Assembly: GCF_004361855.1 (NCBI RefSeq)
Contig: NZ_SNWQ01000001.1
Coordinates: 620,001-684,000 of the forward strand
Origin: Kribbella caucasensis
Lineage (GTDB): Bacteria; Actinomycetota; Actinomycetes; Propionibacteriales; Kribbellaceae
Direction of reading: 5' to 3'
DNA length: 64,000 nucleotides
Below, in pieces: positions 3,916 to 26,265 of the stretch. The notes under the pieces were generated by a model. That model saw only the letters and a program-made list of their open reading frames with translations. It did not search any database and was not told the origin of the DNA. Within the stretch, counting starts at the first letter, position 1. Each line of letters opens with the position of its first letter. Position numbers and translations under genes: made by a program.

Positions 3916-4991
3916 GCACCGTCACGGATCCCATTCAGGCCGCCCTCCACCAGCACAACGCGGATCTGTTCGCTTCCGATGTCGTCGGGCATCCGCCTCA
4001 GACCCTGGTGGAGTTTCTGGCTCGGCACGCTGATGCCGCGCTCGCGGTTTCGGGTGCGGACCAGACCGCCTGGAACGGCCAGATCGTCGAGGCCGGTGAA
4101 GGCATCCTCGGCCTGGCCCACTGGGACGGCACGCTGCACCTCGACCGCGAGTGCATCCTCGAACCCCTGCGGGAGCTCTACCTGCGGGCCGGCGATCCAC
4201 AATCGGACGCGGCGCTGATCCGCTATCGCGAAGCCCTGGTCACGATCCTGCACGAACAGTCCCACTTCCTCGGCCCGGCCGGCGCCACCCAGGAGGCCTC
4301 CCGCGTGGCCTTCAAACAACCGGGCAGCCGTGCCCTGGAGGAAGGCGTCGCCGAAGCCTGGTCGCACGCCAACCTCGACGACTATCTACTCGACCTCGGC
4401 ATCGACGACCTCGCTCCCGGCATCACCGAAGTCACCGCCGACCCGTCGTACCAAGCCTTCGTGCCAGCCGTCCTGATCCTCACCGCCGACCTCGATCACC
4501 GCGCCGGTCTCCCACCCGGTACCGCCCTGCATCTCCTCAACCGCCAAACCGCCGAAGGCCAATGGCCGTTGGTCGTCGACCTCGCCTACACCTCCAGCCC
4601 TCTCCCCTCCGTGGTGCCGCCGGACCTCGAGCCGGCCATCCGCCTGAGCCTCGAATCCACCCTCCGCGAATACTTCGCCGACCTGGACACCCTCGAACCC
4701 CACCCCCGCGACTACGCGGCAGCCCGCTCACGCACCACCGCCCACCAAGCCCTGGCCCACCTGACCACCGAGATCCAATCCATCCACGACGTCTTCGCCC
4801 CCGACCCCACAATCCCCGACCGCCTCCGCCCCACCCCAGCCAGCCGGCACCAACCGTCCACCGACCCGTTCCACCACGCCTTCGCCGGGCTCGCGCCGCC
4901 CGGCCGACCGGTGCCCAGCTCGACCACCCCTTCCAAGCCCACGCGACCCTCCGCCAACGCAGCTGCCCTGCCAACCGAGCGAGGAGCTTGA
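3912..4991 (+). CDS. Putative HExxH zincin-like protein, function unknown
   Basis: 359-aa protein starting at the ATG that overlaps the preceding stop. Residues about 111-120 read TILHEQSHFL, an HExxH metal-binding motif within a helix. About 30 residues on, ALEEGVAEAWSH offers glutamates as third ligand, an arrangement typical of gluzincin-like minimal metallopeptidases. No signal peptide or transmembrane segment is present. The last 60 residues are Pro/Ser/Thr-rich and look unstructured, with local codon use dominated by CCC/ACC. It could be a protease kept in check by the small upstream protein, or an inactive fold; catalytic activity is inferred from the motif alone. The hairpin over the RBS of the pair suggests expression is restricted. 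Confidence 0.6.
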   Translation: MSTVTDPIQAALHQHNADLFASDVVGHPPQTLVEFLARHADAALAVSGADQTAWNGQIVEAGEGILGLAHWDGTLHLDRECILEPLRELYLRAGDPQSDAALIRYREALVTILHEQSHFLGPAGATQEASRVAFKQPGSRALEEGVAEAWSHANLDDYLLDLGIDDLAPGITEVTADPSYQAFVPAVLILTADLDHRAGLPPGTALHLLNRQTAEGQWPLVVDLAYTSSPLPSVVPPDLEPAIRLSLESTLREYFADLDTLEPHPRDYAAARSRTTAHQALAHLTTEIQSIHDVFAPDPTIPDRLRPTPASRHQPSTDPFHHAFAGLAPPGRPVPSSTTPSKPTRPSANAAALPTERGA

Positions 4992-5031
4992 CGCGTGAGC
5001 CGATGAGGTCAGCGCTGGGTTGGTGGTGGGG

Positions 5032-6060
5032 TTAGTTGGTGGGTTGGAGGGGGAGGGGGGTTCGGGTGGGGCGGATGAAGTCGGTGTGGAGGCCGGTGGG
5101 GGTGAGGATGTGGCCGATGCGTTTGGCGAAGCGGGGGAGCATCCAGCGGTCGGCGATCTGGGCGCTGGGGAAGGCGCGGGCGATCTTGGCCTCGATGGCG
5201 TCGAACTCGCGGAGGTTGCGGAGCCAGAGGACGACCGCGAGGTTGGCGCTGTTGATGACGGAGCAGCACATTCTCGTCTCGGGCAACACGGCCAGACCGG
5301 CGCCGACGGTTTCCAGTTGGTGGTGCGGGACGCTGAACCAGACCATCACGGACGCGTTGTAGCCGACCAGGTTGTGGGCGAAGTCGATCCGGGTCCGGGC
5401 CCAGGGCGCGTGCAGGATCTGGCCGATCGCGCGTGTGACGGTGGCGACGCTCTTGCCGATCTCGTCGGCGATCGAGGTGGCCGATCGGCGGATGTCACCG
5501 GCCAGGCCCGCGATCACCTGGTCGTGCAGCCTTGTTGGTGCGGCCGGAGCGTCGATACCGGTGGCCGGAAGGGCGTGCAGGGCGCGGACCTGGCGTGGGG
5601 TGAGGACACCGGGCCGCCAGCTCGTGCCTTCCTTGAAGAAGGTGCGGGTGTAGTGGGTCCGGGTCCCCAATACGCCGGGGACCGCGGCCAGCTCCGTCGC
5701 GACGTACGTGTCGATGTCTGTGACGGAGTTGAAGGACAGGGTCAAGATCAGTTCGCGGGAGCCTGAGGTGCATTCGATGGTGAGCACCGAGGGGTTGGGG
5801 GCGATCCGCTCGATGACGTTCTCGCGATCGCCGGCGACGCAGGACACCTCGACCAAGGCGACCACACCGGCCGGGGGCTGAACCTGTTCGGGCGGGGTCA
5901 CGGCGAAGCACGAACTCCACGCCAGACCGCTCTCGACCAGCCGGGCCCAGCGCCGCGAGAGCGTGGTCGCGTCCACGCCGAGGATCGCCTCGAGCTGCGA
6001 CCAACTGGCCCGCGGGCTGACCTGTAAAGCGTTAATCAGTGCGAAATCTACTTCGTCCAC
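5032..6060 (-). CDS. Lrp/AsnC family regulator, duplicated two-unit form
   Basis: 342-aa DNA-binding regulator, twice the usual Lrp length. Residues 1-45 form an AsnC-type HTH (DFALINALQVSPRASWSQLE, then VDATTLSRRWARL). About 65-145 form a ligand-binding RAM-like domain (VVALVEVSCVAGDRENVIER). A second HTH lies around 178-215 (DIRRSATSIADEIGKSVATV) and a second RAM-like domain near 235-320. Such double-length Lrp proteins probably act as pseudo-tetramers. The ATG at 6060 faces the peptide ABC operon 180 bp away, so this is its probable regulator, sensing an amino acid or dipeptide. No clear palindrome could be assigned in the intergenic region. Confidence 0.85.
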   Translation of the reverse strand: MDEVDFALINALQVSPRASWSQLEAILGVDATTLSRRWARLVESGLAWSSCFAVTPPEQVQPPAGVVALVEVSCVAGDRENVIERIAPNPSVLTIECTSGSRELILTLSFNSVTDIDTYVATELAAVPGVLGTRTHYTRTFFKEGTSWRPGVLTPRQVRALHALPATGIDAPAAPTRLHDQVIAGLAGDIRRSATSIADEIGKSVATVTRAIGQILHAPWARTRIDFAHNLVGYNASVMVWFSVPHHQLETVGAGLAVLPETRMCCSVINSANLAVVLWLRNLREFDAIEAKIARAFPSAQIADRWMLPRFAKRIGHILTPTGLHTDFIRPTRTPLPLQPTN

Positions 6061-6240
6061 GACTCAATATCCCCGCACTGATCACAGTCGCTGTGCAAGT
6101 TCCCCGCAATGTCATGACAGGAATTTGACCGAATGCGCGGAGCACGGACGATCCTCACTAGAGAGATCGTTTGTATACCGTTTGGCCGCCCCAGCCCTGA
6201 CCGCACCGTGAGCTCCTCGACGCCCCCATGGAGGATCGCT

Positions 6241-7254
6241 TTGTCAGTCAATGCCCCGGTAGTGCTACGGGTGGAGAACCTGAGGACCGAGTTCGGTACC
6301 GACCAGGGTCCGGTCACGTCCGTCGACGAGGTCAGTTTCAGCCTGGCCGCCGGGGAGACCCTCTGCCTGGTCGGTGAGTCCGGCTCGGGCAAGTCGGTGA
6401 CCGCGCTGTCGATCATGGGGCTGCTCGCCGACAACGGCCGGGTCGTGTCGGGCTCGGTGGTGTTCGAGGACGAGGACCTGGTGAGGTTGCCGGAGAACCG
6501 GCTGCGGGAGATCCGCGGCAACTCGATCGCGATGATCTTCCAGGAGCCGATGACATCGCTGAACCCGGTGCTGACCATCGGCGACCAACTCGCCGAGTCG
6601 ATGATCCTGCACCTCGGCCTGACCAAAGCGCAGGCCAGGCAGCGGGTGATCGAACTGCTGGACAAGGTCGGCATCCCGCGCGCCCCGGAGGTGGTCGACG
6701 ACTACCCGCATCGGTTGTCGGGTGGGATGCGGCAGCGGGCGATGATCGCGATGGCGTTGAGCTGCGAGCCGAAGCTGATCATCGCCGACGAGCCGACGAC
6801 CGCGCTGGACGTGACGATCCAGGCGCAGATCCTCAAGCTGATGCGGGACCTGAGCGCCGAGACCGGGACGGCGATGATCTTCATCACCCACGATCTCGGC
6901 GTGGTGGCCGAGATGGCCGATCGGGTCGCGGTGATGTACGCCGGTCAGGTGGTCGAGCAGGCGGACGTCTACACGCTCTTCGACGAGCCGAAGCATCCGT
7001 ACACGATCGCATTGCTGCGTTCGATCCCCCATCTGTCCACCGACGAGAGGCTCGCCTCGATCTCCGGATCGGTCCCCAGCCTGTTGTACATGCCGACCGG
7101 GTGCCGGTTCCACGAACGCTGCCCACAAGCGATGGACCGGTGCGTCGGCGAACGCCCGGAACTCCTGCCGATCGCGGGCGACCACGACGTACGGTGCTGG
7201 CTGTACGACGAGGCGGCGCAACCGCAGTCGTCCGGAGCGGCGGTGCCGGCATGA
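6241..7254 (+). CDS. Dipeptide/oligopeptide ABC transporter ATP-binding protein (DppD-like)
   Basis: First ATPase of a peptide-import ABC system, 337 aa. Walker A GESGSGKS is at about 45-52, the signature [12 protein letters not shown] near 158-170, and Walker [12 protein letters not shown] near 180-190. The C-terminus carries the Cys-rich extension typical of Opp/Dpp ATPases ([15 protein letters not shown] ... VRCW). The start is set at TTG 6241 because GGAGGA (6230-6235) sits 5 nt upstream; longer frames upstream lack an RBS and conservation. It opens a six-gene operon and overlaps the next gene as ATGA. It is divergent from the Lrp-type regulator. The ligand is probably a dipeptide or acylated amino acid, given the terminal M20 hydrolase. 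Confidence 0.93.
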
Positions 7255-14697: not shown

Positions 14698-16146
14698 TCA
14701 GCCGTTGGCGACCCGGACGGAGTACCCGCCGAGGCTGCCGTAGGTCGAGTAGCCGTTGTTCAGCGGGTTGCCGTAGCCGACGTTCTCGATCCGCAGGTAG
14801 TACCGGCCCGCGGCCACCTGCTTGTCGATCCGCGCGCTCACCCCGGTCGGCGTCGCCGCGTTCGCCTGGCCCGAGGCCGGGTTGGCGGTGGCGATGACGG
14901 TCCCGGCGGAGTTCAGCAACTGTAGCCGGATGTCCAGGTCGGCGCCCTTCGCGGAGGGTGCGGCGACGAAGCTGAAGGTGCCGGCGGCCACGTCGATCCG
15001 GAAGACGTCCTTGTCCGAGTCGGTGGCGTAGACGCCCTTCCTGCTGGTGCCGAGCGTGAGCGCGGTCGCCGTCGCGGTGGTGTTGCCGTGGTCATCGGCC
15101 CGCCGCGCCAAACCGTTCTCGGCGACGACGGCGTAGTCGTCCTGCTTGTTGTTGGCGTCGGCGTACTCGCCCTTGCTCCACTGGGTGATCGCCTTGTTGT
15201 AGCCGACGCCCATGATCGGCGCCCAGGCCCCGTGACCGCGGTAGTAGCCCTCGGTCGAGGTGCCGTCGTGGCTGAGCCCGACGTTGTGGCCGGCCTCGTG
15301 CGCTGCGGCCTCGGCGATGTTCTTCGCACCCGTGCCGACGCCCTTGGTGAAGACCATGGCCGGCTGGTAGAACGAGTGCTGGCTGGTCCGGTCGAAAACG
15401 CCGACGTAGGCGATACCGCCACAGCCGCAACTCGTCTGGTACCAACTGGACGGGTCGATCAGCACCCGTGTCCCGTACTGCTGGTCGGCCGCGTCCGTAC
15501 GCGTGATCGCCGATTCGGCCGGCGCCTGCGTTGTCACGTCGACGTCGAACGGCGCGTAGTCGTCGGCCACGCGGGCCCACACATCCTTGACGACGTCCTG
15601 CTCAGCCGTGCTCCAGTTGCTCGTGTTGCCGTCGGTGTCGTACGCCGGGACCTTCACGCTGGCCGGTTTGCCGTCGGAGTTCCACGCCGTACCGGTGACC
15701 GTGTGGCCGTCGAAGTCCAGGTAGATGACCCGGTTCGAGCCCTTCTTGCTGTGCAACTCGAACGCCGGGCCGACCGCTGCCGCGACGGCTGTGGTCGCCC
15801 ACTTCGGCGACGCCACGGTCTCGGCCTGCTCTGCCTTGGTGGCAACGGGTTCGCGGTAGAAGAGCTTGCCGTCCTCGTCCAGCCAACTGGTCTTGTCGGT
15901 GGCCAGGATCCGTTCCAGCTGATCTGCGGCGATCCCGTTGCGGTCGGCCAGTTCGGCGAGCCGCGGTTGAAGTTTGGCCAGTGCCGTCCGGCCTTGGACC
16001 GACTGCTCACCGAGCAACTGGTCGAGCGGGGCCACGGGCGGAGTCTGTTCGGCGCCGGCTTGGTTGCCGAGCGCGACAGCCAACGCTCCGAACAGAACGG
16101 CACCGGCGCCCACGAGCGCACCGGTTCGGCGGAACCTGCTTTGCAT
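14698..16146 (-). CDS. Secreted reprolysin-like zinc metalloprotease, tandem paralogue
   Basis: 482-aa paralogue of the following protease, similar over its whole length: the same signal peptide core (FRRTGALVGAGAV), the propeptide with DKTSWLDEDGKLFYREP, the LHSKKGSNRVIYLDFDGHT entry, the zinc site HEAGHNVGLSHDG, the Met-turn APIMGVGY and a PPC tail. Differences lie mainly in the propeptide and surface loops (for example DGKPASVKVPAYDTDG for the paralogue's SKGIDPVNVTAYDTDG). Both start regions share a GGAGGA-type RBS. The 168-bp region upstream, ending at the adh stop, should hold the promoter; a TACGCA or TACAGA -10 is possible but not convincing. Confidence 0.9.
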   Translation of the reverse strand: MQSRFRRTGALVGAGAVLFGALAVALGNQAGAEQTPPVAPLDQLLGEQSVQGRTALAKLQPRLAELADRNGIAADQLERILATDKTSWLDEDGKLFYREPVATKAEQAETVASPKWATTAVAAAVGPAFELHSKKGSNRVIYLDFDGHTVTGTAWNSDGKPASVKVPAYDTDGNTSNWSTAEQDVVKDVWARVADDYAPFDVDVTTQAPAESAITRTDAADQQYGTRVLIDPSSWYQTSCGCGGIAYVGVFDRTSQHSFYQPAMVFTKGVGTGAKNIAEAAAHEAGHNVGLSHDGTSTEGYYRGHGAWAPIMGVGYNKAITQWSKGEYADANNKQDDYAVVAENGLARRADDHGNTTATATALTLGTSRKGVYATDSDKDVFRIDVAAGTFSFVAAPSAKGADLDIRLQLLNSAGTVIATANPASGQANAATPTGVSARIDKQVAAGRYYLRIENVGYGNPLNNGYSTYGSLGGYSVRVANG

Positions 16147-17834: not shown

Positions 17835-17897
17835 CGGCCCACAATAGGCGGCCGCCCTGACCTCAACCGGTGAAGCGGCGCGTTCTGCTTGGGGGGC

Positions 17898-17903
17898 TAC
17901 AGT
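17898..17903 (+). promoter_or_regulatory. -10 element of a leaderless transcript
   Basis: TACAGT with exactly 6 nt to GTG 17910 and no Shine-Dalgarno. Confidence 0.6.
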
Positions 17904-17909
17904 GCAGGC

Positions 17910-19247
17910 GTGCAGTTCAACCGGGATCTGGGCAGGCTGCTGAAGCGGGGTGACTTCCGGCGGCTGTTCGCTGTTCGGCTCACCTCGCAGTTCGGCGACG
18001 GCGTGTTCCAGGTCGCGCTCGCGTCGTACGTGCTGTTCTCGCCGGAGCGGGCGCCCGACGCCGCGGCGATCGCGGGGCTGTTCGCGGTCGCGCTGCTGCC
18101 GTATTCGGTGCTCGGCCCGTTCACCGGCGTACTGCTGGACCGGTGGTCGCGCCGCCAGATCCTGTTCGCCGCGAACGTCACCCGGGCCGCCTTGGTCCTG
18201 ATCGTCGGCGCAGTCGTTGCTGTCGGCAACGCGGGGATCCCGTTCTACCTGATGGTCCTGCTCACGCTCGGGGTGAACCGCTTCCTGCTCTCCGGCCTGT
18301 CCGCGAGCCTGCCGCATGTGGTGGATACGGACGAGCTGGTGATGGCCAACGCGGTCACGCCGACCTCGGGCACAGCGCTGTTCCTCATCGGCGGCGGTGT
18401 CGGTGCCGGCGTGAAGCTGATCGTCGAGTCCGACCTGGCGGTCCTCGGGCTCACGTCCGCCATCTACCTGACCGCGGCGCTCCTGGCGTTGCGGCTGGCG
18501 CGGAACCAGCTCGGTCCCGACCTGAACGGTGACGAACCGGGCGTGCTGGAGGCGCTCGGCAGTATCGCGACCGGTCTGGTCGACGGCGGCCGGCATCTGC
18601 GGCAGCGACCGCAACCCGCCCTCGGTCTGGCCGCGATCGGCTCGCTCCGGTTCCTCTTCGGCCTGGTCACGGTCGCGATGATCCTGCTCTACCGCAACGA
18701 GTTCTACGGACCGGACCAGCTGGACCAAGCCTTCGGCGCGCTCGCCCTGGCGACCGGAGCGGTCGGCGCCGGGCTGTTCCTCGCCGCGCTGGTCACCCCG
18801 TGGGCCACCCGGGTGCTGACGCTGCGCCGCTGGATCACTGTGCTGTTCGTGGCGGCCGCGGTGGTGACGGCGATGCCGGGCGGGCTCTACACCCAGCCGG
18901 CCCTCCTGGTCGCGGGTTTCCTCACCGGGTTCTGCGCGCAGGGCGTGAAGATCAGCGTCGACACCCTCGTGCAGACCGGCGTCGACGACGTCTATCGCGG
19001 CCGGGTGTTCTCGCTCTACGACATGATCTTCAATGTCGGGCAGGTCTCGGCCGCCGCGCTCGGCGCCGTGATCCTGCCCGACAACGGGAAGTCCTACCCG
19101 GTACTGGTCTTCATCGTGTTCGGCTTCCTGGTGACCGCCTTGATCTATGCGCGGCTAAGTTCCCCGGAGCGCGGTGATCGGCTCGATGGCGGAGGCTTTC
19201 CAGGCTGGGTAGGTACCGGCGATCAGCCCGATCAGCGCGCCCAGTAG
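17910..19247 (+). CDS. MFS transporter
   Basis: 445-aa integral membrane protein of the major facilitator superfamily, Enterobactin/MFS_3-like exporters. About 12 hydrophobic spans; the loop 2-3 motif reads GVLLDRWSRRQILFAANVTR (about 69-88). GTG 17910 is preferred over the TTG at 17889 because TACAGT lies 6 nt before it and the protein then begins QFNRDLGRLLKRGDFRRLF as in relatives. The last 31 codons overlap the convergent ABC permease gene by 93 bp; the tail (SSPERGDRLDGGGFPGW) is hydrophilic and unlikely to be conserved. Substrate unknown. It is divergent from the thioesterase gene, 75 bp apart. Confidence 0.87.
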   Translation: MQFNRDLGRLLKRGDFRRLFAVRLTSQFGDGVFQVALASYVLFSPERAPDAAAIAGLFAVALLPYSVLGPFTGVLLDRWSRRQILFAANVTRAALVLIVGAVVAVGNAGIPFYLMVLLTLGVNRFLLSGLSASLPHVVDTDELVMANAVTPTSGTALFLIGGGVGAGVKLIVESDLAVLGLTSAIYLTAALLALRLARNQLGPDLNGDEPGVLEALGSIATGLVDGGRHLRQRPQPALGLAAIGSLRFLFGLVTVAMILLYRNEFYGPDQLDQAFGALALATGAVGAGLFLAALVTPWATRVLTLRRWITVLFVAAAVVTAMPGGLYTQPALLVAGFLTGFCAQGVKISVDTLVQTGVDDVYRGRVFSLYDMIFNVGQVSAAALGAVILPDNGKSYPVLVFIVFGFLVTALIYARLSSPERGDRLDGGGFPGWVGTGDQPDQRAQ

Positions 19248-20561
19248 CGGCGAGCCGATCGCGAGCCGGTTGTCGAGGATCGGGGTCCAGTCCCGGCCCC
19301 AGGAGACCCCGATGGTGAGCAGTACCCCGACCGCCGTACCGAGCAGCCCGCCGAGGAAGCCGACGATCACGCTCTCGACCAGGAACTGCACGGCCACGTG
19401 TCTTCGGGCCGCGCCGAGGGCCCGGCGCAGGCCGATCTCGGAGATGCGTTCCAGCACCGAGAGCAGCGTGACGTTGGCGATCCCGAGACCGCCCACGAGC
19501 AACGCGACCGCGCCCAGCAACAAGAACAACGCATTCAGGTCGGACTCCACCCCGCGCCGTACACCGCCCTGGACCGGCGGGGCGTCGACCTTGATCGCGC
19601 TCGGGTTGTTCGGCTCGATCGCGACCGGCGCCTGACCGGCGATCAGCTGCGCCGCGCCGACCTGAGTACGGATCTCGACCGCATCCGGGGACTCCAGGTC
19701 GAACTCCGTCTTGGCGGCGCCGTTCGGCATGATCACGCCGTCGAGCAGCTCGGCCCGGCCACTGACAGCGTCGAGGATGCCGACCACCGTGTACGCCTGG
19801 TCGCCGATGAACACGGCCGGCTGCGAGTCCACCCGGTTGATCCCGAGCTTCTCCGCCGCGTGCTTGCCGAGGACAACGACCCGGTCGCCCCGCCGGTCGT
19901 GCCCGGCGTCGAAGAACCGCCCGGTCTTCAGGCTCGCCCGGACCGCGTCGAACAGCCCGGCCGATCCCGCGAGCACCGGCAGCGCGTACCCGGTCTTCTG
20001 CCCGTCGAGGCCCTCCACGCTGCGCACCATGTCGTCGCCGATGTCGAGCGCGCTCACCGTCCCAGCGGCGTCGACCCCGTTCAGCCGGGCGAGCCGGTCC
20101 GGCGCGTCCCACGGCAACTGCGTGGCAGCCTCGCCTTCCTGACCACCTTTGTCCTCCGGCTGTACTACGACCCGGGTGGCCGCGGCCAGGTCGAACCGCT
20201 GGGTGATCTGCCCCGCGGCCGTCTGCCCGAGTCCGAGGGTCCCGACCAGCGCGGCGATCCCGAGCACGGTCCCCAAGGTGGTGAGGATCAGCCTGGTAGG
20301 CCGGGCCGCGACCCCCGCGAGCGCCTCGTCGAGCAGGTCCCGTACGGCGGGCCCGCGTCTCAGCCGTACCGCGGATCCCCGCCTCAACCCGGGACCACGG
20401 GTCAGTCGCCCGCGCCGGGACGGACGCCCGACCCGTAGTACCAGCTCCGCGAGCCCGAGCCGCAGCCGGGCGAGCAGCCGACGGCGAGCGGGTGGGGACG
20501 TGGACGGGGAAGTGGACGGCCCGCCGGCGGGATCCGGGAGGCCGGTCTGTGGGTTCACCAT
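19155..20561 (-). CDS. MacB/FtsX-type ABC transporter permease
   Basis: 468-aa permease. A long Arg-rich cytoplasmic N-terminus is followed by TM1 (about 92-112, RLILTTLGTVLGIAALVGTL). Then comes a large extracytoplasmic MacB-PCD-like domain (about 120-335), and three C-terminal helices around 340-460 (LFLLLGAVALLVGGLGIANV, ESVIVGFLGGLLGTAVGVLL, SPLLGALIGLIAGTYPAWKA). RISEIGLRRALGA is the FtsX coupling motif and GTYPAWKASAIEPITALR the usual C-terminus. It overlaps the ATPase gene upstream by 7 bp and ends inside the convergent MFS gene. Such proteins work as mechanotransmitters rather than classical importers. Confidence 0.9.
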   Translation of the reverse strand: MVNPQTGLPDPAGGPSTSPSTSPPARRRLLARLRLGLAELVLRVGRPSRRGRLTRGPGLRRGSAVRLRRGPAVRDLLDEALAGVAARPTRLILTTLGTVLGIAALVGTLGLGQTAAGQITQRFDLAAATRVVVQPEDKGGQEGEAATQLPWDAPDRLARLNGVDAAGTVSALDIGDDMVRSVEGLDGQKTGYALPVLAGSAGLFDAVRASLKTGRFFDAGHDRRGDRVVVLGKHAAEKLGINRVDSQPAVFIGDQAYTVVGILDAVSGRAELLDGVIMPNGAAKTEFDLESPDAVEIRTQVGAAQLIAGQAPVAIEPNNPSAIKVDAPPVQGGVRRGVESDLNALFLLLGAVALLVGGLGIANVTLLSVLERISEIGLRRALGAARRHVAVQFLVESVIVGFLGGLLGTAVGVLLTIGVSWGRDWTPILDNRLAIGSPLLGALIGLIAGTYPAWKASAIEPITALRGT

Positions 20562-21247
20562 TGGAGGGTCCCGTCGACGATCCGCACCTGGCGCTGGGCT
20601 CGGCGGCTGACTTGGTCGTCGTGAGTGATGACGGCCAGCGTCATGCCCTCGGCGTGCAGTTCGTCGAACACTTCGAGGATCGCCTCCGCGTTGACGGTGT
20701 CGAGGTTGCCGGTCGGCTCGTCGGCGAGGAGCAGGCTCGGCTCGGCGACCAGGGCACGGGCGATCGCGACGCGTTGGCGTTCACCGCCCGACAATGTGGT
20801 CGGCGCGAACTCCATCCGGTGTGCGAGGCCCACTCGTTCGAGTGCCACTCGCGCCCGGGCGAGGCGTTCCTTCCGCGGCACCCCGACGTACACCATCGAG
20901 AGCGCGACGTTCTCCAGCACGGTCCGGTGGTCGAGCAGGTGGAACGACTGGAAGACGAACCCGATCCGCTCACCACGCAGTACCGCACGCCGTCGCTCGC
21001 GCAGGTTCGACGTGTCGACTCCGTCGAGGCGGTAGACGCCCCCGGTCGGGTTGTCGAGCAGGCCGAGCAGATGCAGAAGAGTGGACTTGCCCGAGCCGGA
21101 CGGGCCCACGATCGACAGGTACTCGCCCTGCCCGATGACCAGGTCCACCTCTCGGATCGCCTGGACCTCGGGCGGACCGGGGAAGAACCGGCGAACGCCG
21201 ATCATCTCCACCACCGGAGCCGGCAGCGCCACTGCCGTCGCGGTCAT
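20555..21247 (-). CDS. ABC transporter ATP-binding protein (MacB/LolD type)
   Basis: 230-aa ATPase partner of the MacB-type permease. Walker A GPSGSGKST is near 49-57, Q-loop FVFQSFHLLDHRTVLENVAL near 97-116, signature LSGGERQRVAIARAL near 151-165, Walker B LLLADEPTGNLD and H-loop ITHDDQVS. This matches the LolD/MacB subfamily in length and motifs. It overlaps its neighbours on both sides by a few bases (adaptor upstream, permease downstream), so the four-gene operon is tightly coupled. It drives conformational change in the permease, probably for export or lipoprotein/antibiotic handling. Confidence 0.93.
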   Translation of the reverse strand: MTATAVALPAPVVEMIGVRRFFPGPPEVQAIREVDLVIGQGEYLSIVGPSGSGKSTLLHLLGLLDNPTGGVYRLDGVDTSNLRERRRAVLRGERIGFVFQSFHLLDHRTVLENVALSMVYVGVPRKERLARARVALERVGLAHRMEFAPTTLSGGERQRVAIARALVAEPSLLLADEPTGNLDTVNAEAILEVFDELHAEGMTLAVITHDDQVSRRAQRQVRIVDGTLQW

Positions 21248-22542
21248 CGCCCGACCACCACTTGATCGCCCTCGGCCAGCTTGGCGTCGCCGGTCGGGGT
21301 CACCTGAGCGAACCCGTCGGCGGACAGCCCGACCTTGACCGGAACCAGCTCGACCTTGCCTTCCCGCAGTACCTCGACGCGAGAAGAGCCGTCGGATCCG
21401 GCCGAAATCGCGGCGACCGGCACGGCCAGCACCTTGCCGTTCGTGCTCTGCACCGGGATGGTCACCTTGACGTTCGCCTCGCGGAGCCGCTCCAACTGGG
21501 CCGCGGTCAGCGACTTGGGTGCGACGACCACGTCGTACTGGTCCGCGTTCCGGGTGATCCGGCGGACCGTCGCCTGCACGATGGTGCCGTCGCCGAGGTC
21601 GAAGCTGGCCGGCATCCCGACCTTGAGCCGCTCCTTGGTCTGCGCGTCCACCTTCAGCGTGACGACCAGGGAGGCGCCGCTGACCGACATGACGACGCCG
21701 TTCACGGTGCCGCCGCGCTCGACCTTCACGTCGTCCACCCGGCGCGGCAGCGTCTTGACGAAGACCACCTCGGACACCGGCAGCGGCGTACCGGCCTTGA
21801 ATTCGGCCTCGGCCAGCGCGGTCTCGGCGTCGTTCAGGTTCTCCTCCGCGTCGTCGACCTGGCCTTGCTCAACGGAGAAGTCCGTCTTACCGGGCTGCTT
21901 CTTGGCCTGCTTCAGCGCCGCCTCCGCCTGGCGCAGCGCGTTCTTCGCCTGGTCGACGGTCTTCTCGGCCTGGTCGACCGCCTGGGTGAGCTGCTCTTCG
22001 GGCTCCGGCGCTTCGTATCCCGCCGCCTCGTAGAGCTCCTCGATCGCCCGCGCGGTCCCACCGTCGTACTTCGAGTCCACCGTCCCCGGGTCGAACCCGA
22101 GCCGGTCGAGCGTCTGCTCCAGTTGCAGCACGTCCGGGCCGCGGCTACCCGGGCTGAGCGTGCGGTACATCGGCAGCACCCCGGCCAGACCGATGACCGG
22201 CCGCCCGGTGATCTCCAGCAGCGCCTTGCCCTCGTGGATCGTGGACCCGACCGCCGGAACCTTGCCGGTCACCACGGCCGGAGTACGCAGCCCGCTCGTC
22301 TCCACCCGGACGTTCACCGCGCCGTCGAACGACGTGTCGCCGCGGCCCACCACCTTGCTGGACAGCGCCTTCTTCTCCACCGGCACCGTGATCTGGGAAG
22401 CGCTAGGCGCTGCCGTCTTCGCAGCCGCGTCCTCGGGCGACTGGATCCGGCTGCCGGCGGCGACGCCGACCCCGAGGGAGAGCGTCGCCACCGCCGAGAC
22501 ACCGACCAGGACCCGCCGACGCGACTTGGGCGACGCGGTCAC
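21244..22542 (-). CDS. Periplasmic-adaptor-like protein (HlyD/MacA-like) with peptidoglycan-binding domain
   Basis: 432-aa membrane-anchored extracytoplasmic adaptor. The N-terminal TM/signal (VLVGVSAVATLSLGVGVAAG, about 10-29) precedes the biotinyl-lipoyl-like beta domain (VNVRVETSGLRTPAVVTGKV). A PG_binding_1-like segment (SRGPDVLQLEQTLDRLGFDP, then DGGTARAIEELYEAAGY) lies at about 130-180. A helical hairpin/coiled coil follows (about 185-240, AVDQAEKTVDQAKNALRQAE), then the barrel and MP-proximal domains. Start GTG 22542 overlaps the lipoprotein-gene stop (GTGA). The wall-binding insert probably fixes the adaptor in the peptidoglycan of a monoderm cell. It works with the ATPase and permease downstream. 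Confidence 0.85.
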   Translation of the reverse strand: MTASPKSRRRVLVGVSAVATLSLGVGVAAGSRIQSPEDAAAKTAAPSASQITVPVEKKALSSKVVGRGDTSFDGAVNVRVETSGLRTPAVVTGKVPAVGSTIHEGKALLEITGRPVIGLAGVLPMYRTLSPGSRGPDVLQLEQTLDRLGFDPGTVDSKYDGGTARAIEELYEAAGYEAPEPEEQLTQAVDQAEKTVDQAKNALRQAEAALKQAKKQPGKTDFSVEQGQVDDAEENLNDAETALAEAEFKAGTPLPVSEVVFVKTLPRRVDDVKVERGGTVNGVVMSVSGASLVVTLKVDAQTKERLKVGMPASFDLGDGTIVQATVRRITRNADQYDVVVAPKSLTAAQLERLREANVKVTIPVQSTNGKVLAVPVAAISAGSDGSSRVEVLREGKVELVPVKVGLSADGFAQVTPTGDAKLAEGDQVVVGR

Positions 22543-23585
22543 CGCTCCGCCATCGTGTCGCGGTACTGCTCGAGCTGAGCCTTGTTCTGCTCGACGAACT
22601 CCTTCTCCAGCTCGTACTGCACCTGCTTGTACGGCGCGTCGTAGACCTTCGCCATACACGCCTGGTCCGCCTTGGCCAGCTCGATCTCGAACTTCCGCAG
22701 CTCAGCCAGCTTCTGCGAGTCGACCTTGTCGAACGACGGCGGCCCGGACACGGTGGCCTTGCCCTGGTTCGGCCCGCTGGTGGTCCCGGTCAGCTCGTCC
22801 AGCTTCTGGTGCACCTTGGTCCGCGTCTCCTCCGGCTTCTTGTAGCCTGAGTGCCCGGAGTCGGCGAGGCAGTCGGACCAGGCCGTGGTCGCGGCGACCA
22901 CCCGCTGGTCGGACTCGATCCGCTTGCGCAGCGCCTCGATGTCCTTGAACAGCGACTCGAACTTGTTGAAGTCGGCCATCCGGTCCTCGCCCTTGCCGTA
23001 CACCTCCTCGGCGGACTTGCCCCGGCAGCCGGTGTTCATCTGCTTGTTCGTGCTCTTGCCGTCTTTCGGGGCGACCACAACGTTGCCGTCGCCCATGTCC
23101 CCGTTCAGCGCCTTGTCGTACGCCTTCTTCGCGGCGGCCGAGAGAGCGTTGCGGATCTTGGTGTTCGGGTTGCTGTCGTCCTCGTCCGGTTTCGACCAGT
23201 CGATCGTGCTGATGCCGTAGCCGTACTGCGCGGCGAACTTGTCCGGCGGCAGGTTGAAGGCTTCGTTGAACTTCGACTTCGGGTCCGACTCCGGCGGCAC
23301 CGCGACGTACTCGAACCCGGCCGACTTCATACAGGCCGCGGTCGCTTCCTCGACCTTGCGCTGCTTGGCCAGCTCCTCCTCGGTCGAGCCCTGTCCGCCG
23401 CCGGCCCGGATGGCGACCCGCATTCCGCCGCCCGGACCGCTCGAGAAGCCCTCGCCCATGTACTCCGAGAGCGGGCTCTTGTCCTGGTTCTCGCTCGGTG
23501 GCGCCGCTCCCGGGTCGTTCGTGCTCCCGCATCCGGCCAACGCGAGCACCGCGACCAGAGCGACGGCTTTCGATGAGGTTTTCAT
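22539..23585 (-). CDS. Cysteine-repeat lipoprotein of the MacAB-like module
   Basis: 348-aa lipoprotein with signal peptide and lipobox LALAGC (lipid-modified Cys19). The mature part has four further cysteines (C85, C187, C239, C310), mostly in helices of the type ATAACMKSAGFEY and WSDCLADSGHSGY. No enzymatic motif is seen. The C-terminal helix (YKQVQYELEKEFVEQNKAQL) is long and charged. It is the first gene of the operon with the adaptor, ATPase and permease, and faces the response regulator. The motif around C85 recurs twice in the sensor domain of the neighbouring histidine kinase, pointing to a common fold and perhaps a common ligand. Start ATG 23585 is chosen for the signal peptide; no good RBS, so a leaderless, activator-dependent promoter is likely. 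Confidence 0.8.
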   Translation of the reverse strand: MKTSSKAVALVAVLALAGCGSTNDPGAAPPSENQDKSPLSEYMGEGFSSGPGGGMRVAIRAGGGQGSTEEELAKQRKVEEATAACMKSAGFEYVAVPPESDPKSKFNEAFNLPPDKFAAQYGYGISTIDWSKPDEDDSNPNTKIRNALSAAAKKAYDKALNGDMGDGNVVVAPKDGKSTNKQMNTGCRGKSAEEVYGKGEDRMADFNKFESLFKDIEALRKRIESDQRVVAATTAWSDCLADSGHSGYKKPEETRTKVHQKLDELTGTTSGPNQGKATVSGPPSFDKVDSQKLAELRKFEIELAKADQACMAKVYDAPYKQVQYELEKEFVEQNKAQLEQYRDTMAER

Positions 23586-23607
23586 GGTCGTGAGCCTGGC
23601 CGCGACG

Positions 23608-23629
23608 CTGTGAAGAACCTGTGAAGGAC
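23608..23629. promoter_or_regulatory. Tandem 11-bp direct repeats, probable response-regulator boxes
   Basis: CTGTGAAGAAC directly followed by CTGTGAAGGAC, 10 of 11 bases equal and spaced one helical turn apart, as OmpR-family regulators require. On the lipoprotein strand they lie 23-44 bp upstream of the ATG, where an activator would replace the -35 of a leaderless promoter. Confidence 0.65.
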
Positions 23630-23652
23630 CGATCAGCACCCGATGCTCTCAG

Positions 23653-23683
23653 CCGATCTTCATCGAAATCTCATGAAGATCGG
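23653..23683. promoter_or_regulatory. Perfect 11-bp inverted repeat upstream of the response regulator
   Basis: CCGATCTTCAT (23653-23663), 9-nt loop, ATGAAGATCGG (23673-23683). It lies just before the -10 (CACTGT, 23685-23690) of the regulator gene and overlaps its -35 region, so it may be an operator for autoregulation. Confidence 0.6.
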
Positions 23684-23684
23684 T

Positions 23685-23690
23685 CACTGT
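23685..23690 (+). promoter_or_regulatory. -10 element of leaderless response-regulator transcript
   Basis: CACTGT, 6 nt, then ATG 23697. The GAGGG next to the ATG is too close to act as an RBS. Confidence 0.5.
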
Positions 23691-23696
23691 GAGGGA

Positions 23697-24395
23697 ATGC
23701 CAGCCCGGATTCTCGTTGCCGAAGACGACCGGAAGCAGGCGGAGCTGATCCGGCGGTATCTCGAGCGAGAGGGCCATCTGACGGTCGTCGTGTACGACGG
23801 CCGGGCCGCCATCGACGAGGCCCGCCGGCGCAGCCCGGACCTGCTGGTGCTCGACGTGATGATGCCGAAGGTCGACGGCCTGGACGTCTGCCGGGTACTA
23901 CGCGCCGATGGCGACGTGCCGATCATCATGCTGACCGCGCGCTCCACCGAGGACGACCTGCTGCTCGGCCTCGATCTGGGCGCCGACGACTACCTGACCA
24001 AGCCGTACAACCCGCGCGAACTCGTCGCCCGGGTCCGGACCGTACTGCGTCGCACCCAGAGCCGGTCCGAGGGCGAGGTGTACCGGGTCGGGGAACTGGA
24101 GATCGACCCGGTCCGGCACGAGGTCCGGCTGGCCGGCCGGCTGGTCGAGGTGACGCCGGCCGAGTTCAAGATCCTCGCCTGCCTGGCCGCGTCCCCGGGC
24201 CGTGCCTTCACCCGGCAGCAGTTGCTCGAACACGCCTTCGGCTTCGACCACTACGTGTTCGACCGGACGATCGACGTCCATGTGATGAACCTGCGCAAGA
24301 AGATCGAGCCGGCGCCCACCTCCCCGGCGTACCTGAAGACCGTGTACGGCGTGGGGTACAAGCTGGCCGACAAGGTGGTGTCCGATGCGTCATAG
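23697..24395 (+). CDS. OmpR/PhoB family response regulator
   Basis: 232-aa two-component response regulator. The receiver domain (1-115) has acidic D10/D11, phosphoacceptor D53 (LLVLDVMMP), T80 and K102 (DYLTKPYNPREL). The C-terminal winged helix (about 130-228) shows VEVTPAEFKILACLAASPGR and RTIDVHVMNLRKKIEP, then TVYGVGYKL. Start ATG 23697 is set by the family N-terminus and the -10 six bases upstream. It overlaps the kinase gene by 11 bp and is divergent from the lipoprotein/exporter operon, which it very likely controls through the 11-bp repeats in the shared intergenic region. Confidence 0.95.
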   Translation: MPARILVAEDDRKQAELIRRYLEREGHLTVVVYDGRAAIDEARRRSPDLLVLDVMMPKVDGLDVCRVLRADGDVPIIMLTARSTEDDLLLGLDLGADDYLTKPYNPRELVARVRTVLRRTQSRSEGEVYRVGELEIDPVRHEVRLAGRLVEVTPAEFKILACLAASPGRAFTRQQLLEHAFGFDHYVFDRTIDVHVMNLRKKIEPAPTSPAYLKTVYGVGYKLADKVVSDAS

Positions 24396-26265
24396 CGTCC
24401 TGGTCCGGTTCCTCGGGCTGTCCCTGGCCGTCGCTCTCGGGGCGGTGATCGCGACCGCGGTGATCGCCACCTACAGCACGTCGGAGAAGCTGCAGGGCGA
24501 GATCGCCACGAATCTCTCCCAGCTCGAGGTCGACGGCGAGATCTACTCTCGGCTGACCAAGTACGCCGAAGACAACACCGGCTGGTCCGGGGTCGACCAG
24601 ATGGTCCGCGAACTGGCCGACCAGACCGGCCGGCGGATCGCGCTGACCAAGCCAGACGGCACGGTGATCGCGGACTCGGCGCGGATGCTCGGCGCCAGCC
24701 CCGAGCTCCCTTCGGTGCCAGCGGCAACCATCGACGCCGCCAGTCAAGGCAACGGGATGTTCAAGGCGGCGGCCGGTGGAGCGATGACCACCACGCGGCT
24801 GCGGACCGAGAAGGCGCTGGTCGGATCGGTGATGATCGGATCGGCCTCGGCCACGCCGTTCTGGGGACTCACCGACGAGGAGCGCCGGCAGCGCGAAGAC
24901 CTCGCGAAGCAAGCGGTCGCGTGCTATCGGGCGGCGGGCCGCCAGGTCACGGTGACCAGCACCACCGAAGGGCCTCGGCTGGTCTTCGAGGCGGTCACGA
25001 CGATGGACGGCGCCACGGTGACCGAGATCCAGAAGGCGAACGAGAAGGTCGACGACCCGTGCATGCCGCCCGGCCTCTATGCGCCGAGCGCCAAGGCCCG
25101 GACGGTGAACCAGGACGAGATCCGCCGCGCCACCGCATGCCTGCAGAAGGCCGGCGAACCGTACGAGCTCACGTCGATCCAGGCCGACGGATTGCAGTCC
25201 GTGACGCCGAAGAACCCCGAGGGCAAGGTCGTCTCACCCGCCTTCGTCGAGTGCACGTCCGCCGCCCGCACCGAGGCCCTCAAGCCGTACGTCGCTCCCG
25301 AGGCGCGCCTCTATCTCGGCTCCAGGTCGACCTTCAACGTGTTCTCCGCCGAGGGCATGCTCCGTACCGCGGCCACCGCGCTCGGCGTACTCCTGATCGC
25401 GGCGCTGGTGATGGTGTTCGCGGGTCGCCGCCTGGTTCGTCCGATCCTCGCGCTCACCGGCGCGGCGCAGCGGATGACGAACGGGGATCACGCGGCCCGG
25501 GTCCCGGTCGCCGGGCGGGACGAGGTGGCCCGGCTCGGGCACGCCTTCAACGCGATGGCCGAATCGATCCAGCGGCACGACTTCCAGCGCAAGGCGATGG
25601 TCAGCGACGTCGCCCACGAGTTGCGGACTCCACTCGCCAACATCAAGGGCTACCTGGTCGCGTCCGAGGACGGCGTGGTCCCGCTCGACCGGGAACTAGT
25701 CACCTCGCTGCTGGAGGAGACCGCGCTGCTCGAACACCTGGTCGCGGATCTCCAGGACCTCGCGCTCGCCGACGCCGGCATGCTCCGGCTGCACCCCGCG
25801 CTCCGCGACCTGAGCGAGCTCGCCACCCAAGTCGTCGCGGCGCACAGCCCCACCGCCGACGCGGCCGGGGTCACGCTGAGGGCCGAGGTCAACGGTCCCG
25901 CGCCGGCGATCGTCGACAACGCCCGAATCCGCCAGGCCCTCGGCAACCTGGTCTCGAACGCGATCCGCTTCACCCCGTCCGGCGGCCGGGTCGTCGTCGG
26001 CATCCGCCGCGTCGGCAACGGCTACAACCTCACTGTCACCGACAACGGCACCGGCATCGCCGCCGAACACCTCCCGCACCTCTTCGACCGCTTCTACCGC
26101 GTCGAACACTCCCGATCCCGAACCACCGGCGGCAGCGGCCTGGGCCTAGCCATCACCAAACACCTTGTCGAAGCCCACGACGGCACCATCACGGTCACCA
26201 GCCAGCCATCCCACGGCTCCACCTTCACCATCCACCTCCCCAGCCAGCCCTCAAGGCCGTCCTAG
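24385..26265 (+). CDS. Sensor histidine kinase with large Cys-containing extracellular domain
   Basis: 626-aa membrane kinase, partner of the response regulator. TM1 is about 8-30 and TM2 about 326-347, enclosing a sensor domain of nearly 300 residues, far larger than in most relatives. HAMP follows TM2 (RRLVRPILALTGAAQRM), then HisKA with H411 (SDVAHELRTPLANIKGY), the N box NLVSNAIRFTPSGG, G1 DNGTGI, an F box LFDRFYRVEHSRS and G2 GGSGLGLAITKHLVE. The sensor has four cysteines (C180, C226, C252, C290). The helices around C180 (AKQAVACYRAAG) and C252 (RRATACLQKAGEPY) resemble the C85 helix of the neighbouring lipoprotein. Its TAG stop is also the start of the -10 of the next gene. Confidence 0.92.
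   Translation: MRHSVLVRFLGLSLAVALGAVIATAVIATYSTSEKLQGEIATNLSQLEVDGEIYSRLTKYAEDNTGWSGVDQMVRELADQTGRRIALTKPDGTVIADSARMLGASPELPSVPAATIDAASQGNGMFKAAAGGAMTTTRLRTEKALVGSVMIGSASATPFWGLTDEERRQREDLAKQAVACYRAAGRQVTVTSTTEGPRLVFEAVTTMDGATVTEIQKANEKVDDPCMPPGLYAPSAKARTVNQDEIRRATACLQKAGEPYELTSIQADGLQSVTPKNPEGKVVSPAFVECTSAARTEALKPYVAPEARLYLGSRSTFNVFSAEGMLRTAATALGVLLIAALVMVFAGRRLVRPILALTGAAQRMTNGDHAARVPVAGRDEVARLGHAFNAMAESIQRHDFQRKAMVSDVAHELRTPLANIKGYLVASEDGVVPLDRELVTSLLEETALLEHLVADLQDLALADAGMLRLHPALRDLSELATQVVAAHSPTADAAGVTLRAEVNGPAPAIVDNARIRQALGNLVSNAIRFTPSGGRVVVGIRRVGNGYNLTVTDNGTGIAAEHLPHLFDRFYRVEHSRSRTTGGSGLGLAITKHLVEAHDGTITVTSQPSHGSTFTIHLPSQPSRPS

Follow-up and report, generated by a model that had tools for sequence, protein, structure and literature searches.

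A MacAB-like exporter module of Kribbella with a four-cysteine lipoprotein and a histidine kinase whose sensor may contain a related domain

We analyzed a 64,000-nt stretch of the Kribbella caucasensis genome (NZ_SNWQ01000001.1, positions 620,001-684,000 of the forward strand), here called the window, whose positions supply all coordinates below. At 19155-26265 a minus-strand operon with overlapping gene ends encodes a lipoprotein, an adaptor, an ATPase and a permease, and it is faced by a response regulator and a histidine kinase. The permease (19155..20561, minus strand, 468 aa) carries MacB_PCD (PF12704, E 3.2e-20) and FtsX (PF02687, E 2.2e-17) domains and has four transmembrane (TM) segments by hydropathy (residues 91-109, 344-362, 399-417 and 433-451). 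The ATP-binding cassette (ABC) ATPase (20555..21247, minus strand, 230 aa; PF00005, E 1.9e-31) is LolD/MacB/FtsE-like, and its best NCBIfam match is LolD (6.8e-65), under the LolD equivalog cut-off. The adaptor (21244..22542, minus strand) joins an N-terminal TM segment to a peptidoglycan-binding domain (PF01471, PG_binding_1, E 2e-6) and an HlyD/RND-mfp-like part. It scores below the family cut-offs of TIGR01730 (RND_mfp; E 3.4e-7, 29.5 bits, cut-off 94.9) and of HlyD_3, while its single TM segment and its place in the operon fit a MacA/HlyD-type adaptor. Because of a 4-bp overlap with the neighboring gene, its true start is likely the GTG at 22542 rather than that of the listed open reading frame (ORF), 21244-22659.

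The first gene of the operon encodes a lipoprotein with the lipobox LAGC and four further cysteines that are also found in its relatives (22539..23585, minus strand; likely start 23585, ORF listed as 22539-23639). It matched zero Pfam or NCBIfam families above cut-off. On the plus strand, the OmpR/PhoB-family response regulator (23697..24395; PF00072, PF00486; likely start 23697, ORF listed from 23643) is MtrA/PhoB/BaeR-like in NCBIfam, below the equivalog cut-offs. The 626-aa sensor histidine kinase (24385..26265, plus strand) has HAMP, HisKA and HATPase_c domains by Pfam. Its hydrophobic segments, residues 9-27 and 329-347, enclose an extracellular sensor of ~300 residues (about residues 28-328). 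A preliminary description of this DNA had proposed the same six genes, with their order, divergence, coordinates and long extracellular kinase sensor, all of which are borne out by the ORFs, the Pfam and NCBIfam matches and the hydropathy profile.

The transporter has two features of a MacAB-like system, a four-TM permease with a MacB periplasmic core and FtsX domain and a MacB/LolD-type ATPase, and by its sequence the module is a putative MacAB-like exporter of drugs or peptides. It resembles the Gram-positive exporters YknXYZ of Bacillus and SpMacAB of Streptococcus in combining a MacB-type transporter with an apparently MacA-like adaptor; according to the accessible text of PMC5985334, YknX is reported to bind peptidoglycan. 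Relative to these exporters, the module has an adaptor with a PG_binding_1 domain, a four-cysteine lipoprotein within its operon and a linked two-component system with a long sensor. Bce-type and CprABC-CprRK modules also pair a two-component system with a MacB-superfamily transporter, and CprK senses through an extracellular domain (PMC8003753, accessible text). However, Bce kinases, as far as the accessible sources describe them, lack an extracellular domain and leave sensing to the transporter, whereas here the kinase carries a sensor of ~300 residues and the permease has four TM segments. The kinase is therefore no intramembrane, sensorless one, and the 468-aa permease is no 10-TM protein with a large loop. 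The accessible text of PMC8003753 describes no adaptor of this kind in Bce or Cpr modules.

The transporter is also distinct from LolCDE, with 36.4 bits against the LolC/LolE equivalog model (cut-off 362) and a single permease gene. This bears on a different explanation, in which the lipoprotein is the cargo of the pump: a MacB/LolCDE-like transporter would lift it off the membrane, the adaptor would pass it to the wall and the kinase would monitor the process. The LolD match of the ATPase and the linkage of lipoprotein and exporter genes agree with a cargo role, but a single four-TM permease carrying MacB_PCD, together with an apparently MacA-like adaptor, is unlike the LolC/LolE pair, and we consider this explanation improbable.

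The two transcription units are separated by 111 bp (23586-23696). Within this gap lies an 11-bp direct repeat, CTGTGAAGAAC / CTGTGAAGGAC (23608..23629, plus strand), which is kept in relatives and is, from its sequence, likely an operator for the regulator. OmpR-family regulators bind 11-bp direct repeats of this kind. All 19 aligned rows from the genus show the repeat, altered at no more than two positions. Its best site has at most three mismatches in all 11 other six-gene loci (in five of them on the opposite strand, as a facing site), and when the bases of each locus were shuffled, 0 or 1 of 200 shuffles equalled that site. The scan covered 230 bases per locus and left out L194-L207; it misses L067 and L075, whose sites lie outside the scanned bases and are both visible in the alignment. 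No repeat within three mismatches was found in the eight kinase-only loci L097-L104, and the 9.46 Mb genome contains a single exact copy of the repeat core. Because the repeat tracks the six-gene loci and its exact core is unique in the genome, the regulator may well serve only this module. We do not claim a genome-wide regulon from the repeat, since a search with up to two mismatches gave 20 sites and the reversed pattern gave 12. Nearer the regulator gene is a second element, conserved in the genus and present in the window as an inverted repeat, CCGATCTTCAT / ATGAAGATCGG (23653..23683), which is possibly a second regulator site. A scan of 23480-23800 for sigma-70 promoters found none.

We quantified how often these genes occur together, where 'not detected' means no match in HMMER scans at the thresholds used. 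A strong match to the window's lipoprotein is present in all 25 same-genus genomes searched, its own included, and in G037; among the 39 genomes searched, two more have weak matches and 11 have none. Neighborhoods were fetched from 18 of the 24 other genus genomes, and in all 18 the six genes are arranged in the window's divergent order. All six are likewise present in G037, split across two contig ends. From other families, 20 loci were chosen by sensor match: ten contain all six genes, one (L085) has the exporter without the large, window-type lipoprotein, and in nine only regulator and kinase were detected. A 394-genome sample of the class, in which at most 5-11 candidates per genome were scored, yielded the sensor in 59 genomes and the lipoprotein profile in 62. 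Strong lipoprotein matches (E<1e-100) occur in 19 of the 393 other class genomes, every time with a sensor match on the same contig at a distance of 1.0-1.2 kb.

Together, the window, the 18 genus loci, G037, the 20 other-family loci and 19 further loci make 59 long-sensor loci. Thirty of these have a large lipoprotein and the exporter, five have a small four-cysteine lipoprotein with exporter genes (L085, L188, L191, L192 and L193; the adaptor was undetected in L191 and L192), and three, fetched on account of their kinases, have a small lipoprotein with no exporter detected (L100, L102 and L104). L188-L193 were fetched for their lipoprotein matches and provide no measure of how often kinases have one. 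The preliminary description had named absence of the lipoprotein from most homologous loci as the outcome that would speak against it; instead, leaving aside the 19 further loci, the exporter is present in 31 long-kinase loci, window included, of which 30 encode the large lipoprotein and one, L085, a small four-cysteine one.

Some of these loci have further features. Two four-cysteine lipoprotein genes are present in each of L091, L092, L096 and L138, and the pairs in L091, L092 and L096 would suit a cargo role. The regulator and kinase genes of two kinase-only loci are adjoined by a gene for a lipoprotein that has an L,D-transpeptidase (YkuD) domain (L097 9573-10376, L103 8834-9700), which hints at a cell-wall signal. 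A weak second sensor match in the window's own genome (L136, E 0.31) was discarded, as no plausible gene lies there.

We now turn to the cysteines that the sensor and the lipoprotein have in common. In ORF numbering, the lipoprotein has C37 (the lipobox), C103, C205, C257 and C328, and the kinase sensor has C180, C226, C252 and C290. The preliminary description had rightly seen further cysteines in both proteins, although its lipoprotein C85 corresponds to C103; its shared motif A-x-x-C-x-x-A-G had the wrong spacing, because the residues actually read C-x3-A-G, not C-x2-A-G (A-x-x-C-x-x-x-A-G in the kinase, A-T-A-A-C-x-x-x-A-G in the lipoprotein). The alanine before the glycine varies among relatives of both proteins, and in the kinase the glycine after C180 varies too. 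The conserved feature is consequently the four-cysteine pattern rather than the motif as first written. All four mature cysteines are kept in 32 of 32 aligned lipoprotein rows (trimming left out L095, which has the same number of cysteines) and in 53 of 53 members of the wider family. The sensor cysteines are kept in 40 of 40 aligned rows, and in a 55-row alignment C180 is present in 54, C226 in 55, C252 in 55 and C290 in 53.

The cysteines lie in two tandem units, which are present in the sensor and in the small and large lipoproteins and are weakest in the large ones. Each unit has a helix with C-x4-G, followed by a second cysteine. When halves were compared with HHalign, the sensor gave 90.7% (P 1.3e-6, 42 columns), the small lipoproteins 98.7% (58 columns) and the large lipoproteins just 53.9% (30 columns); the tandem-repeat part of the sensor spans residues 157-311, encoded at 24853..25317 on the plus strand. 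Two single-unit lipoproteins, both in L236, hold the first two cysteines only, which suggests that cysteines pair within a unit, and we therefore infer disulfides C1-C2 and C3-C4. A third row with only the first two cysteines (L237) has two units.

The small lipoproteins, first seen beside the kinase relatives L100 and L104, link the sensor to the large lipoproteins. Of the 41 sequences in their family, 38 have the complete set of four cysteines. Compared with the sensor, they gave 47.9% in HHalign (P 1.9e-4) over 110 columns with the four cysteines all in register, while the first 10 of them gave 18.0%. The sensor-small score was 30.4, and the maximum in 100 shuffles that kept the cysteine columns fixed was 16.5. 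A hidden Markov model (HMM) of the sensor part, built from kinases alone and searched against 7,964 locus ORFs, placed four-cysteine lipoproteins in the top 14 positions among non-kinases; since many of the ORFs do not represent genes, the background for this ranking is an easier one. The three best lipoproteins have E 4.7e-4, 9.0e-4 and 1.1e-3, and two of them span most of the model. Toward the large lipoproteins, the small family gave 77.2% (P 2e-5) over 23 columns, or one helix, and 40.8% over 58 columns in a further match, and its profile finds 25 of 54 large lipoproteins at E<1e-4. By units, small and large lipoproteins match at 82-94% over 23-32 columns, and small-lipoprotein and sensor units at 17-39%; a single-unit small-lipoprotein profile finds the large lipoproteins well (best E 1.8e-8). 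No tested member of these cysteine-bearing lipoprotein families matched a Pfam or NCBIfam model above cut-off. These comparisons support, but do not prove, that the four-cysteine part of the sensor and the lipoproteins form one superfamily built of two tandem ~60-residue units.

The same data bear on a redox explanation, in which the kinase reports whether its two disulfides form, the exporter answers secretion stress, and the likeness to the lipoprotein comes from disulfide-held helices only. The four near-invariant sensor cysteines would suit such a switch, which has also been proposed for CutS of the Streptomyces CutRS system, a kinase whose sensor also has invariant extracellular cysteines and which becomes constitutively active when both are changed to serine (PMC12802291, accessible text). 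However, the sensor-small lipoprotein similarity exceeds all 100 cysteine-keeping shuffles, and the tandem repeat looks like a folded domain and not like a switch pair; we regard the redox explanation as quite unlikely. CutS further differs in having two cysteines and htrA3/htrB as core targets, and the accessible text of PMC12802291 does not mention a lipoprotein.

Small lipoproteins also occur in modules of their own. From a search that scored at most 5-11 candidates per genome, we fetched 20 of the 21 next-best small-lipoprotein matches (L238-L257), which were not chosen by neighborhood, and found adaptor, ATPase and permease genes in 20 of 20. A regulator and a kinase are present in 17 of these loci; L250, at a contig end, has the kinase only, and L246 and L257 have neither. 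The short outer part of the kinase lacks cysteines in 16 of 17 cases (L240 has two), and in three of those 16 kinases just one hydrophobic segment was found. The window's genome contains one such smaller module (G000:C19, L249 4275-9757), with a short cysteine-free kinase, a regulator, a four-cysteine lipoprotein, a peptidoglycan-binding adaptor, an ATPase and a permease. It looks like lipoprotein and exporter form the core, to which two or more types of kinase have been added. L246 has one large and one small four-cysteine lipoprotein gene in close proximity (4911-7021), adjoining an exporter, with no two-component system detected.

Our preferred reading, to which we give a chance just short of even, is that the locus is an actinobacterial module in which a two-component system controls a MacAB-like envelope exporter, a four-cysteine lipoprotein is dedicated to the module, and the kinase contains a domain related to that of the lipoprotein. 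What we propose about the mechanism is conjectural wherever it goes past the gene content, the conserved repeat and the arrangement of the cysteines. The four-cysteine domain would bind a ligand at the membrane-wall interface, for example an antimicrobial peptide or a product of wall damage, and the kinase would detect this ligand with its built-in copy of the domain. The phosphorylated regulator would then bind the 11-bp repeats and raise expression of both divergent units. Meanwhile, the tethered lipoprotein would gather the same ligand and deliver it to the adaptor, anchored in the wall, and to the MacB-type pump, and the pump would drive it away from the membrane. In the related modules whose kinases are short and cysteine-free, detection would fall to the separate lipoprotein. 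A broader version, which we entertain with more doubt than belief, holds that these modules are a widespread actinobacterial defense system in which the lipoprotein is the usual ligand receptor for a short, cysteine-free kinase, and that in the window's branch the receptor domain was taken into the kinase, as a paralog with the same ligand. If true, this natural domain fusion would tell which proteins of a common module talk to each other.

Several results weigh against the preferred reading. At the control region, L089 has a kinase without exporter and a repeat with three mismatches, and L085 has the exporter without a repeat at that level. In gene content, 21 of the 59 long-sensor loci have neither a four-cysteine lipoprotein nor an exporter detected nearby (counting L189, whose small-lipoprotein exporter set lies ~5 kb off), and 16 of 20 large-lipoprotein loci fetched lack adaptor and permease, a count that also argues against a cargo role. 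In these 16 (L140-L148 and L150-L156), adaptor, permease and kinase were undetected within 13-15 kb; in the remaining four (L137, L138, L139 and L149), the large lipoprotein is accompanied by the exporter, and no two-component system was detected. With no four-cysteine lipoprotein detected near 21 of 59 kinases and no kinase detected in these four lipoprotein-exporter loci, the sensor can evidently do without the large lipoprotein. The 21 kinases and the 16 lipoprotein loci also show parts of the module acting on their own.

These counts also bear on whether the lipoprotein is a regulatory partner that holds the kinase off through contact between related domains and is drawn away by the ligand or the exporter, the exporter being the output. 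CseA has been proposed as such a partner of CseC (PMC9739842, accessible text). Here, the lipoprotein gene faces the regulator gene across a common control region, and the small lipoproteins of L100, L102 and L104 lie beside kinase genes with no exporter detected, as a partner would. On the other hand, the 21 kinases with no four-cysteine lipoprotein detected nearby and the four lipoprotein-exporter loci with no kinase or regulator detected would leave a partner's counterpart missing, and we judge this explanation unlikely.

The direct comparison of the sensor with the large lipoprotein adds to the points that count against the preferred reading. Whole-domain HHalign gave 13.5%, 7.5% and 10.0% in three alignments (8.9% when poor trimming had removed 21 of the 40 sensor rows). 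These matches cover one helix, 33-44 columns, and the matching sensor helix changes with the alignment. Between units, the values are 39.5, 9.1, 2.1 and 0.2%, and the last pair (first sensor unit, second lipoprotein unit) falls below its reversed control. The small-large match rests on the cysteine helices, with few columns; the single-unit small-lipoprotein HMM finds 26 of 58 kinases at E<=100 (best E 0.11); and BLASTP of two small lipoproteins against the window's sensor gave no match. AlphaFold models, made from two sequences per protein (the window and L033, Kribbella sp. ALI-6-A, the same place as L069), were poor, with a predicted local distance difference test (pLDDT) score of 56 for the sensor and 45 for the lipoprotein, and Foldseek with the sensor model returned 0 matches at E <= 0.001. 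For the 7.5% comparison, the score of 28.0 exceeds both reversed controls (18.0 and 17.3) and 60 column shuffles (at most 19.3), and the sensor and the large lipoprotein therefore have a local likeness, short of proof. We do not claim direct homology of the window's pair alone, since narrow, wide and trimmed whole-domain alignments never exceeded 13.5%. The earlier proposal of homology between kinase sensor and lipoprotein accordingly survives in part: the two can be linked through the small lipoproteins, and the whole window-type pair stays at 7.5-13.5%. Unrelated domains, the finding that would have spoken against it, did not emerge from the profile comparisons, in which the small family provides a link.

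Three structural or sequence resemblances were set aside. With VIA-align, the four-cysteine part of the sensor resembled common folds of the ferredoxin-like type (Z about 4.5-5) and its N-terminal part the WalK sensor 7dud (Z 5.2, 85 residues, root-mean-square deviation 3.0), both below a meaningful level. A PDB sequence search with the lipoprotein gave HP1028 at best (E 0.025, 29 residues).

Two-component control of MacB-type pumps, Gram-positive adaptors, helper lipoproteins and cysteine sensors are each already known separately, from sources available in part. Lipoproteins are tied to a two-component system or an ABC exporter in CseA-CseBC, AfsQ3-AfsQ1Q2 and NisI, for which the accessible texts describe no domain common to kinase and lipoprotein (PMC9739842, PMC8003753). 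A small literature search of titles and abstracts turned up no description of the gene combination, the four-cysteine family or the sensor likeness. The claim that the system is undescribed is thus uncontradicted within that limited search, while the kinds of component are all familiar.

Actinobacteria make and meet many envelope-active antibiotics, yet ligands are known, to our knowledge, for few of their envelope sensors. If a kinase and an exporter lipoprotein do share a domain, this would tell where the signal is read, and the module would offer a target for reporter screens. It would also point to a possible function for the cysteine-bearing lipoprotein family, whose tested members scored above cut-off with no Pfam or NCBIfam model.

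Beside the module, a major facilitator superfamily (MFS) transporter gene (17889-19247) is convergent with the permease gene and adjoins it in 18 of 18 genus loci fetched. Farther from the module, 14698-16146 encodes a secreted protein whose HEAGHNVGLSH motif we take to be zinc-metalloprotease-like.

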